Below, in pieces: positions 24,152 through 28,855 of a DNA stretch of 64,000 nt. The notes beneath the pieces are model-generated. The model had not been told where the DNA came from. It made no database searches and saw only the letters and a list, made by a program, of their open reading frames with translations. The position numbers were made by a program, and so were the translations under genes. This DNA is from Tessaracoccus antarcticus (GTDB taxonomy: Bacteria; Actinomycetota; Actinomycetes; Propionibacteriales; Propionibacteriaceae), in NCBI RefSeq assembly GCF_003688855.1, contig NZ_REFW01000001.1, forward strand, positions 248,001 through 312,000. Direction: 5' to 3'. How positions within the stretch are numbered: position 1 is the first letter of the stretch; every line of letters starts with the position of its first letter.

Positions 24152-25936
24152 TCAGCGGTCGGAGCGGAGACGATCAAGGCGTGCGTACATGTCCTCGATC
24201 AACGCCTTGAACCGTTCCTCCACCTGACGCCGACGCACCTTCAGCGTGGGAGTCAGCATGCCGTTGTCCATGGTGAGCTCATCATCCATGACCGCCGTCT
24301 CACGGGGCCGTTCCTGACTGGGCAGCATGGCAGTCAGCTCGGCGACGCGACGCTTGACCTCGTCGAGGAGTTCGTTGCCGGCGAGCCAGTCGGCCACCTC
24401 TCCAGGCCACTGCTTCATCTTCCCCAGTTCCTCCACCTGCGGGAGGGCAGGCTTGACGAGGAGCGTGATGTAGGGGCGGTTGTCGCCCAGCAGTACGGCA
24501 TGTTCGAAGAGCGGATCAGCGAGGATCATGCCCTCGATGGGCTGCGGCGCAACATTCTTGCCCCCCAGCGTGACGATGATGTCCTTCAACCGGTCGGTGA
24601 TCACGAGGTAACCGTCGGTGTCCACGTAGCCGATGTCGCCCGTGTGCAGCCAGCCGTCCTGGATGGCCTCAGCCGTTGCCTCATCGTTGTGCCAGTACCC
24701 GGCCATGACGTTGGGGCCCTTGTACAGGATCTCCCCGAGCTCACCGACACGCAGTTCACCTCCGACGATGACCCTTCCCGCCGTGCCGAACTTGAACCCA
24801 CCCGGCGAGTTGAAGCTCACCAGCGGGGACGCCTCCGTGAGGCCGTAGCCGGTGTAGATGGGCATGCCGATGGAGGAGAAGAACTCCTCGATCTCCTTGC
24901 GGAGCGGTGCCCCGCCGCATGCCAGCACCGTCTTGGTACCGCCCATCGCGGCGCGCACGTTGGAGTGGACGAGCTTGTCAGCCAATGGCAGCTGGGCGCG
25001 CCACCACAGGCTGGGGGTCCGTCCCTTGCGGAAGGAGTGCTGGTTGCGTGCACCCACCTGAAGCGCCCACGTGAAGATGTGACGCTTCACAGCTGACGAC
25101 GACACCTTGGCGTGCGCCGTCGAGAACACCGTCTCGTACAGCTTAGGAACACTCACGAGCAGCGTGGGCCTGGCCAGCACCAACTGGTCGGCCACGGTGC
25201 GGGCGTTCTCCACGTAGGTGTTCATGCATCCCTTGAGCAGCACGACGGTGGTCCATGCACGCTCCAGGGTGTGGGAGAGCGGAAGGAAAGCCAACGAATG
25301 ATCCTCGGGGCCGAATTCGAAAACCTTCTCGAGGGCCTCCTTCTGCCGCACCAGCGCCTTGTGCTCCAGCATGACGCCCTTAGGATCGCCGGTAGTGCCG
25401 GAGGTGTAGATGATGGAGGCGAGGTCAGAGCCCTCCGCCTCCCCCAGACGCGCTGCCAGCGCCGCGTCATCGGGCGTCGAGAGGAAATCGGCGAACGAGA
25501 TCACGCCCTCGGGAAGGTCGTCGTAGGGCTTGACGATGACGATGGTCTCGAGGCAGGGCAGCTCCGACTTCACCGAGAGCACGCGCTCACACTCGCTGCG
25601 GTTACCGACGAACAGGATGCGCAGCTCGGAGTCCCCCACGATGTGGCGGATCTGCGTGGGTGTGGACGTGGCGTACAGCGGAACCAGCACCCCCCGCACC
25701 GTGGCCACGCCGAAGTCGATTTCCGACCATTCAGGACAGTTGTTCAGGAACAGACCAACGCGGTCGCCGGCCTCGATGCCGATGTCCAGCAGACCCTGCG
25801 CAACGGCGTCGATGCGCTTCCCGAACTCCGTGAACGTCTGGGTGCGCCAGGCATCATCGACGCGGATGCGCGTGGCAGTGTTGTGGGGATGCTCGGCGAT
25901 GGTGGCTCGCATCCGCACGGCAATCTGTTCGATCAT
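24152..25936 (-). CDS. long-chain acyl-CoA synthetase
   Basis: This 594-residue AMP-forming ligase (FadD15-like) activates long-chain fatty acids to acyl-CoA via acyl-AMP. The P-loop-like motif YTSGTTGDPKGVMLEH is at about 175-190, TGYGLTEASP at about 355, GWLHTGDIGYVDTDGYL at about 430, and the hinge DRLKDIIVTLGGKNV follows. The adenylation lid ends with the Lys/Arg-rich segment LKVRRRQVEERF. The ATG at 25936 has a GGGGAG site; a TTG 15 bases upstream is less likely. It leads the operon with the rhodanese fusion and SGNH hydrolase. Confidence 0.94.
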   Translation of the reverse strand: MIEQIAVRMRATIAEHPHNTATRIRVDDAWRTQTFTEFGKRIDAVAQGLLDIGIEAGDRVGLFLNNCPEWSEIDFGVATVRGVLVPLYATSTPTQIRHIVGDSELRILFVGNRSECERVLSVKSELPCLETIVIVKPYDDLPEGVISFADFLSTPDDAALAARLGEAEGSDLASIIYTSGTTGDPKGVMLEHKALVRQKEALEKVFEFGPEDHSLAFLPLSHTLERAWTTVVLLKGCMNTYVENARTVADQLVLARPTLLVSVPKLYETVFSTAHAKVSSSAVKRHIFTWALQVGARNQHSFRKGRTPSLWWRAQLPLADKLVHSNVRAAMGGTKTVLACGGAPLRKEIEEFFSSIGMPIYTGYGLTEASPLVSFNSPGGFKFGTAGRVIVGGELRVGELGEILYKGPNVMAGYWHNDEATAEAIQDGWLHTGDIGYVDTDGYLVITDRLKDIIVTLGGKNVAPQPIEGMILADPLFEHAVLLGDNRPYITLLVKPALPQVEELGKMKQWPGEVADWLAGNELLDEVKRRVAELTAMLPSQERPRETAVMDDELTMDNGMLTPTLKVRRRQVEERFKALIEDMYARLDRLRSDR

Positions 25937-26027
25937 GGACTCCCCTGTCAATCATGTTCGGGTCAGCTTATCCACGTCAGCGTAACCACGGCCCCGGGGC
26001 CCCACAACCAGCAAGGAGGGGATGAAG

Positions 26028-26513
26028 ATGAAGCATCGTTTCCACACCACGGAGGTCGGTGACTACGTCCTGGTCCTGGACGACGGCGCCCTCACGGGGC
26101 TCTACCGACTCGAGCAGAAGCACATGCCCGCCGCCAGCGACCTGGGGGAACGTGACGACGCGGCCGGCGCTGAGGTGGTGACCCAGCTCGATGAGTACTT
26201 CGCGGGCGAGCGTCGCGACTTCCACCTCCGGCTGGCGCCCCGGGGTACGACTTTCCAGATCATGGTGTGGGATGCCCTGCGGGAGATCCCGTACGCGCAG
26301 ACCATGAGCTACGGGGAGCTGGCGGCGTCGCTCGGCCGCCCGACGGCGAGCCGGGCAGTCGGTGGTGCCACCGGTCGCAACCCGCTCAGCATCATCGTGC
26401 CGTGTCACCGTTTGGTGGGGTACTCCGGACAGTTGATCGGCTACGCCGGGGGCGCCACCACGAAACAGCTCCTGCTGGATCATGAACGGCGCATTGCCGC
26501 TGCAGACCAGTAG
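26028..26513 (+). CDS. ogt: O6-methylguanine-DNA methyltransferase
   Basis: This 161-residue protein repairs O6-alkylguanine by irreversible transfer of the alkyl group to its cysteine. The acceptor site is IIVPCHRLVG, and the helix-turn-helix and arginine-finger region SYGELAASLGRPTASRAVG is complete, as is the C-terminal GYAGG. ATG 26028 (MKHRFH) sits 8 bases after AGGAGG; the ATG at 26022 is too close to it. It is a single gene converging on the NPG-repeat genes. Confidence 0.95.
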   Translation: MKHRFHTTEVGDYVLVLDDGALTGLYRLEQKHMPAASDLGERDDAAGAEVVTQLDEYFAGERRDFHLRLAPRGTTFQIMVWDALREIPYAQTMSYGELAASLGRPTASRAVGGATGRNPLSIIVPCHRLVGYSGQLIGYAGGATTKQLLLDHERRIAAADQ

Positions 26514-26542: not shown

Positions 26543-26773
26543 TCAGACCAGTTCAGGCCCCGGGTTGTCCGAACCCTCGCCCGGAACCTCTTCCGGCTCA
26601 TCGGCGGTGTGGCCGCCCGGGTTCTGTGAACCCCTGTGCGGGCGTTCCTCCGGCACGTCGCCGGGGTGACCGCCCGGGTTCAGCGTCCCCATCGCTGGAA
26701 CCTCCTCGGGTACTTCCGGCGAGTGTCCGCCGGGATTTTCCGACCCGTGTCGGGGATGTGGTTTTTGACTCAT
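26543..26773 (-). CDS. NPG-repeat small acidic protein 1
   Basis: I do not recognise this 76-residue protein. It is made almost entirely of four units of about 18 residues. Each unit carries a G-(S/T)-x-N-P-G core: HGSENPGG, MGTLNPGG, RGSQNPGG and EGSDNPGP. The units are joined by PEEVP- or PEERP-type acidic linkers. It has no Cys, Trp, Tyr or Phe and is predicted to be disordered. It ends in NPGPELV, like the next gene (NPGPELA). GAGGAAGGA lies 6-7 bases before the ATG. It is the third of three small related genes on the same strand and is likely co-transcribed with them. Confidence 0.75.
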   Translation of the reverse strand: MSQKPHPRHGSENPGGHSPEVPEEVPAMGTLNPGGHPGDVPEERPHRGSQNPGGHTADEPEEVPGEGSDNPGPELV

Positions 26774-26817
26774 GGCAAATCCTTCCTCAGTTGGGATGAG
26801 TTCCTGGGTGAGATGAC

Positions 26818-27051
26818 TCAGGCGAGTTCCGGACCCGGGTTCTGGGACCCCTCCTCGGGGACCTTCTCCTCAATTCCGTCGAGGTTCGGGCCGGGGTTCT
26901 CGGATCCGTCCGCCGGGACCTCCTTGACCACGTCCCCCAGGTTGGGCCCAGGGTTACCCGAACCCTCTTCGGGTACCTCTTCGACCACCTGTTCCCCGTA
27001 GCCCCCAGGGTTGTCGGACCCCTCGTCCGGGAGGTCCTGCACTTCGGTCAT
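26818..27051 (-). CDS. NPG-repeat small acidic protein 2
   Basis: This 77-residue protein is built from four tandem units: LPDEGSDNPGGYGEQV, VPEEGSGNPGPNLGDV, VPADGSENPGPNLDGI and VPEEGSQNPGPELA. The GS-x-NPG core is invariant. It is strongly acidic, has no Cys or Trp, and shows no signal peptide or membrane helix. AAGGAG lies 6 bases before the ATG. It is 44 bases upstream of repeat protein 1 and 105 bases downstream of repeat protein 3. Function is unknown; the conserved core and short regular linkers imply a selected structural or binding role. Confidence 0.78.
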   Translation of the reverse strand: MTEVQDLPDEGSDNPGGYGEQVVEEVPEEGSGNPGPNLGDVVKEVPADGSENPGPNLDGIEEKVPEEGSQNPGPELA

Positions 27052-27156
27052 CTTGACTCCTTCGTCATTGCCGACGGCGTGCGCGTCGGCGCGCATCTAC
27101 CGCCATTATCACCCCATGCGATGGGTGCCTGCCGCGATCGGACGCCACCTGTTGCC

Positions 27157-27315
27157 TCAGCGCTGAGCGGGTTCATCGGGGTCGACGCCCTCTGCCGGGT
27201 CCTGTGCATGGGGCGTGCCCGCAGTGGTGTCGTCGCCGGGGTTCTCCGCCCCTTCTGCTGGCGCCTCGGTGGTGACGCGGTCAACATCCTCGGATGGTTG
27301 ATTCTGTTCGCTCAT
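27157..27315 (-). CDS. NPG-repeat small acidic protein 3
   Basis: This 52-residue protein (MSEQNQPSEDVDRV...) has one clear unit, TEAPAEGAENPGDD, and a weaker one, DPAEGVDPDEPAQR, in which NPG has become DPD. It is acidic and disordered, with no Cys or aromatic residues. AAGGAG lies 6 bases before the ATG. It is the first of the three related small genes and is divergent from the GPH symporter gene. It is the least repetitive member, perhaps the ancestral form or a degraded copy. Confidence 0.68.
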   Translation of the reverse strand: MSEQNQPSEDVDRVTTEAPAEGAENPGDDTTAGTPHAQDPAEGVDPDEPAQR

Positions 27316-27451
27316 GGCAACTCCTTCGTGGTGCTTGTCAGCCCGCTTCCGTGACCTCACGGACCTCCATTGTGTCGGGCATCGGGTCTCCTGAGGGGAT
27401 GAATGGCGAACTGCTGCTGCTGTAACCAGCAGGCGTGCAACACTGACGCCC

Positions 27452-28855
27452 ATGAGTGGACTCGGGGGGGATCCGACGTCGTCGGACGGGTCCGTGGCGC
27501 CTGATCGGTGGCGCAACAGGCTGAGCTTCGGATTGGGAACCATCGGCCGGGACATGTCGGCCGCGTTGGTCAGCCTCTACCTTGTGTACTACCTCACCGA
27601 GGTGGTCAACATCTCCCAGGCCACACTGGTGGGCGTGACCGTCATCATCGTGGTCATGCGTATCTTCGACGCACTGAACGACCCGGTGATGGGTGTCGTC
27701 GTCGACAACACCCGCTCCCGGTGGGGGAAGTTCAAGCCATGGATCGCCGTCGGCGCCGTGCTGTGGGCGGTCTCCACCCTCATCCTGTTCGTCGACACAG
27801 GACTGCGGGGAACCGGGTTCCTCCTGGTGTTCGCCGTGGCCTACCTGATGTGGGGCATCAGCTACACCATCAACGACATCTCCTTCTACGGCATGCTCCC
27901 GTCCCTGTCACGGAACCTGAAGGAGCGCGAAGCCATTGGGGTGGTGGCACGCATCGCCGCCAACGTCGGCCTTTTCAGTGTCGTGGTGGGTGTCATCCCC
28001 ATCACGAACCAGCTCACGGCCCTGCTGGGTAGTGAGGAGAAGGCCTGGTTCGTCTTCGCCGTGATCCTCGTGTCCCTGATGCTGGCGTTCCAGTCCCTCA
28101 CACTCATCTTCACGCGACAGCGGGTTGCGACCCCCACTGCCCGCACCCCTCTGCGTGAACTGTTCGCCGTCATCACCCGCAACGACCAACTGCTCGTGGT
28201 GACAGCCGCCATGCTGCTGTTCATGGCCGGGTACACCGCCACCACCAGCCTGGGCATCTACTACTTCAAGTATGTGTACGGCGACGAGGGGATGTACCCC
28301 ATCTTCGCCCTCATCCTCGGGGTGGCGCAGCTCACCGGCCTGGCCATCTTCCCGCTCGTCTCTGCCCGGCTGACGCGTCGCCAGATCCACGGGGTGGCCT
28401 CCGCGATGTGCGCCGCGGGGCTGGCCGTCTTCGCTCTCGCCGGCTCATCGATGGCGCTCATCGCCGTGGCCGGTGTGTTGCTGTTCATGGGGCAGGCGTT
28501 CATCCAGCTCCTGATGCTGCTGTTCATCGCAGATTGTGTCGAGTACGGGGAGTGGAAGCTGGGCCGTCGCAACGAGTCCATCACGTTCGCCCTGCAGCCG
28601 TTCATCTACAAGGCCTCGAACGCGCTCGGCACCGGCCTTGTTGGTATCGCCCTCGTGGTCTCCGGCATCAGTCGGGCGCAGTCCGCGGCCGACCTCACGG
28701 CCTCGGGCGTGGTGTCGTTCAAAGTGGTGATGATGGTGGTGCCCATGGTGCTGGTGATCATCAGCTGGGTGGTGTTGCGACGCTGGTACACACTGGATGA
28801 GAAGCGCTATGCCGGCATCGTCTCGGACCTGCGCACGAGGGAAGGTTTGTCGTGA
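27452..28855 (+). CDS. GPH-family glycoside:cation symporter
   Basis: This 467-residue membrane protein has about twelve helices and belongs to the glycoside-pentoside-hexuronide:cation symporter (MelB/LacS-like) branch of the MFS. Evidence is the N-terminal SFGLGTIGRDMSAALVSLYLVYYLTEV (core GTIGRDM), FDALNDPVMGVVVDNTRSRWGKFKPW (core DALNDPVMG) and the loop DCVEYGEWKLGRRNE in the second half, all family hallmarks. There is no IIA-like C-terminal domain. The stop overlaps the GH13 gene, so the pair imports an alpha-glucoside and hydrolyses it. Confidence 0.93.
   Translation: MSGLGGDPTSSDGSVAPDRWRNRLSFGLGTIGRDMSAALVSLYLVYYLTEVVNISQATLVGVTVIIVVMRIFDALNDPVMGVVVDNTRSRWGKFKPWIAVGAVLWAVSTLILFVDTGLRGTGFLLVFAVAYLMWGISYTINDISFYGMLPSLSRNLKEREAIGVVARIAANVGLFSVVVGVIPITNQLTALLGSEEKAWFVFAVILVSLMLAFQSLTLIFTRQRVATPTARTPLRELFAVITRNDQLLVVTAAMLLFMAGYTATTSLGIYYFKYVYGDEGMYPIFALILGVAQLTGLAIFPLVSARLTRRQIHGVASAMCAAGLAVFALAGSSMALIAVAGVLLFMGQAFIQLLMLLFIADCVEYGEWKLGRRNESITFALQPFIYKASNALGTGLVGIALVVSGISRAQSAADLTASGVVSFKVVMMVVPMVLVIISWVVLRRWYTLDEKRYAGIVSDLRTREGLS

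Follow-up and report, generated by a model that had tools for sequence, protein, structure and literature searches.

Genes at the locus

The window, the whole 64,000-nucleotide stretch of Tessaracoccus antarcticus DNA analysed here (genome G000), carries three very small genes in tandem, hereinafter referred to as genes 1 to 3 (Table 1). The three minus-strand open reading frames of 52, 77 and 76 residues described in the original prediction were confirmed together with their strong ribosome-binding sites, an AAGGAG/GGAAGG-type Shine-Dalgarno sequence being located 6-9 nt upstream of each. The start of gene 2 was assigned to position 27051, preceded by a GAAGGAG that is kept in related species; an in-frame ATG at 27096 was rejected as its start, since it has no conserved ribosome-binding site. 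Of the loci compared, those of G000 and G013 alone carry the Ogt-type gene at this position, so it does not count as a consistent neighbour. A sigma-70 promoter scan returned no match, and a terminator scan returned plus-strand matches only, at chance level.

Table 1. Features of the tiny-gene locus (positions in the window).
Feature	Position	Strand	Basis
Gene 1, 52 aa, acidic, 'PAEG' family	27157..27315	-	ORF; orthologues at fadD-MFS locus; dN/dS
Gene 2, 77 aa, four NPG units, 19-residue spacing	26818..27051	-	ORF; orthologues in G013, G032, 2-261
Gene 3, 76 aa, paralogue of gene 2, four NPG units, 19-residue spacing	26543..26773	-	ORF; orthologue in G013
Shine-Dalgarno of gene 1, GAAGGAG	27322..27328	-	Sequence; same motif upstream of orthologues
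Shine-Dalgarno of gene 2, GAAGGAG	27058..27064	-	Sequence
Shine-Dalgarno of gene 3, GAGGAAGG region	26780..26787	-	Sequence
fadD-like acyl-CoA ligase, downstream of the tiny genes, flanks them in related species	24152..25951	-	Locus comparison
Ogt-type methylguanine-DNA methyltransferase, convergent	26022..26513	+	Locus comparison
GPH-family sugar symporter, divergent; conserved other flank	27452..28855	+	Locus comparison

Repeat architecture of genes 2 and 3

The Asn-Pro-Gly (NPG) motif was counted nine times over genes 1, 2 and 3 (1 + 4 + 4), as originally reported. The spacing from NPG to NPG is exactly 19, 19, 19 residues in genes 2 and 3, which replaces the earlier figure of about 18 residues per unit. 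When the residues of each protein were shuffled 200,000 times, three or more NPG motifs arose 33 times for gene 2 and 22 times for gene 3 and four never did, so that the number of NPG motifs does not reflect compositional chance. The same 19, 19, 19 spacing was found in the homologues of G163, G166, G170, G174 and G178, with small departures elsewhere and diverging linkers; it was looser (20, 22, 18) in the G159 and G160 members, 18 residues in the protein of uncultured Arachnia 2-261, and 16 in that of G133. Most members have four units in this register, and in most the chain ends 2-4 residues past the last NPG(P). The unit consensus, derived from 56 aligned units, was (G/A/S)-(S/I/V)-x-N-P-G-(P/G/S)-x6-(E/D)-x8, in which the core Gly was invariant. 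An acidic residue was present 10 positions after the Asn in 84 % of 43 units; a few of the units are loose NLG matches within linkers.

Distribution of the NPG family

Within the Arachnia group, to which the window's genome belongs, orthologues of both genes 2 and 3 were identified in G013, and orthologues of gene 2 in G032 and uncultured Arachnia 2-261 (L089), the latter two also harboring gene 1. These three loci share the flanks of the window genes, namely the fadD-like acyl-CoA ligase and the GPH sugar symporter, and rpsF-ssb-rpsR-rplI lies close by where the compared stretch extends that far. Profile iteration added members from genus g29 (G163, G166, G170, G174, G178, G180, G159, and G160) and genus g24 (G133, G134, and G135). 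The G135 member (L096 5771-6451 (-)) is a longer, Asp-rich protein in which DRDGDG-type segments recur and only two NPG copies, both NPGP, are present, at the C-terminus; its gene adjoins a ClpB-like gene.

Homologues outside this strain, on which the original prediction made a functional reading depend, thus exist in several species of three genera. The NPG family comprises about 15 members, all from Propionibacteriaceae within the genomes searched, a range that is a lower bound given partial sampling and a loose first pass of the search. When 395 genomes sampled from the class were searched, the window's own genome was the only one to match at E <= 0.001. Weak profile matches in other genera (e.g., L052, L105, L109, L110, and L111) corresponded to overlapping or unrelated frames with no repeat array, and were discarded. 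The Arachnia and g24/g29 genes probably descend from a single ancestor, since they have the same architecture and an Arachnia-only profile reached an E-value near 1e-6 per genome; convergence of low-complexity repeats would be a less likely alternative. The plasmid and phage collections searched gave no match, and hence no sign of a mobile origin.

No match for the proteins was found in Pfam, NCBIfam, PHROGs, PADLOC, or PDB, which supports the earlier remark that the pattern fits no family known to its author. In Pfam, this holds at E up to 10 for the three window proteins and at E up to 0.1 for any member. A literature search returned nothing on these proteins. Judged from their sequences, the three genes are real, conserved members of two undescribed small-protein families.

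Gene 1 and the PAEG module

The original prediction had treated all three genes as one NPG family, but sequence comparison places gene 1 in a separate, PAEG-type family of similar acidic composition. Orthologues of gene 1 were found at the fadD-MFS locus in G032, uncultured Arachnia 2-261, G007, and G025, the last two having no NPG genes at that locus, and directly upstream of fadD in G026. The single NPG of gene 1 is replaced in five other members (NTPG, DQPG, VDPG, VDPG, and VAPG), so only eight of the nine NPG motifs described as retained are a conserved feature. What the gene 1 family keeps instead is a pair of (A/P)AEG units of the HxQ(D/E)PAEG type, with HxQ standing ahead of the second (HAQDPAEG in gene 1).

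A search of 197 genomes with a degenerate nucleotide pattern encoding H-(A/P/S/T)-Q-(D/E)-(P/A)-A-E-G returned 12 sites, 10 of them in the gene 1 module, and none with the reversed control. The matches in L191 and L192 were located in long ORFs and look like out-of-frame reading. In three Arachnia-group species (G029, G031, and G068; L118, L119, and L120), a DivIVA-like coiled-coil protein ends in the module, read in frame as its C-terminal tail. Within the longer frame, the module has an AGGAGG and an ATG of its own ahead of it, so that these species could produce it in two forms, attached as a tail and free. The DivIVA-like coiled-coil protein carries unrelated acidic tails in other species. 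In genus g28, ribosomal protein S2 of G153 ends in the module (L182; VHTETAAEG ... VHAQDPAEG), and the same tail, interrupted by a run of N, occurs in a second species (G155; L181 and L195); the S2 part is complete only in G153 and was recognised by eye from the sequence, not by a family search. A stand-alone module was present in G003 in a comparable neighbourhood (glycosyltransferase and nucleotidyltransferase) with no DivIVA-like gene.

Selection and predicted disorder

The dN/dS ratios ranged from 0.06 to 0.28 overall, with 0.10-0.22 for gene 1, 0.16 for gene 2 (against G013), and 0.06 for gene 3 (against its G013 orthologue), values that are approximate, dS being high (0.8-2.7) and near saturation. 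In five homologue pairs, core residues were changed at 1 of 63 positions versus 124 of 345 elsewhere (Fisher P 4e-10), and silent differences were present in 42 of the 63 core codons. This comparison, which had been proposed as a check on the NPG core, thus pointed to strong selection. Ribosome-binding sites, starts, and synteny were also conserved across relatives. The frozen core, the silently drifting codons, and the low dN/dS together indicate functional proteins under purifying selection.

The acidic composition noted originally was confirmed, with net charges of -12, -18, and -10 for the products of genes 1, 2, and 3, and none of the three contained Cys or Trp. Their GRAVY values were -1.40, -1.02, and -1.38, and their Gly contents 7.7, 16.9, and 17.1 %, respectively. 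Hydrophilins are reportedly defined (Garay-Arroyo, 2000) by glycine above 6 % and a hydrophilicity index above 1, and all three window proteins had such a composition; a few homologues fell short of the hydropathy mark (G166, -0.81; gene 2 of G013, -0.92; G159, -0.95). The window proteins were on the disordered side of the charge-hydropathy plot, and AlphaFold2 prediction gave a mean pLDDT of 59, a pTM of 0.12, and no secondary structure. By composition, charge-hydropathy, and AlphaFold alike, they are predicted to be unfolded.

Stress-related context of homologues

A SigF consensus promoter has been described as GTTT-N(14-19)-GGGTA (PMC4694148). An exact SigF-type promoter was present within 160 bp upstream of 3 of the 10 non-Arachnia members (G166, G174, and G178; P 2e-5, against a background of 0.56 % of stretches), and allowing one mismatch added G159 and G160 (5 of 10; P 3e-7); both P values are optimistic, the pattern having been spotted by eye before testing. 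Gene 2 of the Arachnia genome G032 was also preceded by such a promoter with one mismatch, and no SigF-type promoter was found upstream of window genes 1-3.

Neighbouring genes were called by a simple GC3 rule throughout the comparison of loci. In G160, the NPG gene is surrounded by DUF892, CsbD, an SDR, and genes for a SigB/SigF/SigG-type sigma factor and an ANTAR/PAS regulator, and most of this neighbourhood is shared by G159. DUF892 and CsbD are generally regarded as stress genes. The window genome has no close relative of the G160 sigma factor, the only matches looking like SigA and a primary-like SigB; as genes 1-3 have no SigF-type promoter either, the stress link is one carried over from relatives. 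The NPG repeats of G160 are encoded within a 402 aa protein (L156 3552-4760 (-)) with a possible membrane segment and a weak match, falling below the cutoff, to a membrane domain of the holin type, and the G159 counterpart has 123 aa. Given this larger protein and the looser spacing in both genomes, the stress-cluster members are the least typical of the family. A further small protein with no Pfam match is encoded next to the NPG gene in G159 (101 aa; L169 6614-6919 (+)), and a related ORF is present in G160 (L156 2589-3200 (-)).

Possible functions

Of the roles originally suggested, that of a disordered stress protectant gained indirect support, through the SigF-type promoters and stress cluster of homologues and the predicted disorder. 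We tentatively propose, with a probability of roughly 0.42, that genes 2 and 3 encode hydrophilin-like cytoplasmic stress protectants, in which case the sequence family would be new and the kind of protein known. Each product would be an acidic, intrinsically disordered protein of the cytoplasm, about 76 residues long, in which linkers of 16 residues, acidic and containing proline, connect four Asn-Pro-Gly turns. Small, soluble, and glycine-rich, these proteins would accumulate under stress and may protect the cytoplasm or other proteins against loss of water, crowding, or aggregation, the Arachnia members presumably doing the same job as the relatives with a stress link. The product of gene 1 would be a short companion from the second family.

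A pure hydrophilin, however, would not need an exact 19-residue register. The maintenance of this register across G000 genes 2 and 3 and five g29 members while linkers diverge, together with the acidic residue 10 positions after the Asn and the chain end just after the last NPG(P), would suit a multivalent adaptor or scaffold, in which the G-x-N-P-G turn and acidic linker act as a docking motif, so that a partner of repetitive or oligomeric build would meet four sites. This originally suggested role is still a credible, if somewhat unlikely, alternative: no partner gene is conserved as a neighbour across the family, AlphaFold predicts no fold, and the spacing shifts in 2-261 and G133. A broader reading, which we consider doubtful, is that both families are portable linear-motif modules, the tetravalent NPG arrays organising a specific repetitive partner and the gene 1 module, also found as the S2 and DivIVA-like tail, serving as a tag read by a dedicated partner.

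High net negative charge and small size would also be expected of a regulatory, anti-factor, or nucleic-acid-mimic protein inhibiting a basic partner via its acidic linkers. Known folded DNA mimics differ in disorder and Gly/Pro content, and no conserved target gene lies alongside, which makes such a role improbable. Repeated cores in a short peptide, and the location of the G163 and G166 members near a glutamate-cysteine-ligase-like gene, could suggest a RiPP precursor or leaderless bacteriocin. This precursor role, also raised originally, is very unlikely, because the proteins are Cys-free and acidic, show no constant leader with a varying core, and have no maturation, export, or immunity genes recurring beside them; as stated in the original prediction, the genes flanking the tiny genes (acyl-CoA ligase, DNA methyltransferase, and sugar symporter) include no maturation enzyme, nor is one shared near distant homologues. 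Low-complexity repeats arise easily by slippage, but the low dN/dS, silent drift of the NPG codons, and conserved ribosome-binding sites, starts, and synteny leave almost no room for the view that these are non-functional repeats which expanded and by chance stayed open.

If the protectant reading is correct, Propionibacteriaceae, including oral Arachnia, would have their own small-protein families filling a GsiB/LEA-like role, and the sequences concerned form a class that none of the family libraries searched contains. With its 19-residue register and an NPG core that hardly varies, the NPG family would offer a compact, testable model of selection on a disordered repeat protein.

Comparison with known systems

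The NPG units contain NPGP, often after an acidic residue (GSENPGP), and in this respect resemble 2A (StopGo) peptides, whose skipping is known from eukaryotic ribosomes. A 2A identity is not supported, as the D(V/I)ExNPGP motif is absent, the units reading GS[EQDG]NPGP and several having NPGG or NPGS. Pup is likewise a small, acidic, disordered actinobacterial protein, but the NPG proteins have neither a C-terminal GGQ/GGE nor a Pfam match, and Pup lacks the repeat architecture.

Hydrophilins are charged, glycine-rich, and mostly devoid of Trp and Cys (PMC3691520). The NPG proteins have no sequence relation to hydrophilins or LEA-like proteins such as GsiB of Bacillus and YciG of E. coli, and neither the KGG repeat domain of GsiB/YciG nor an LEA domain was detected in Pfam, at E up to 10 for the window proteins and up to 0.1 for any family member; they also differ in being acidic and in their Asn-Pro-Gly turns and 19-residue period. 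They nevertheless share with them small size, very high hydrophilicity, glycine richness, short repeats, the lack of Cys and Trp, and predicted disorder, and some NPG relatives appear under a stress sigma factor.
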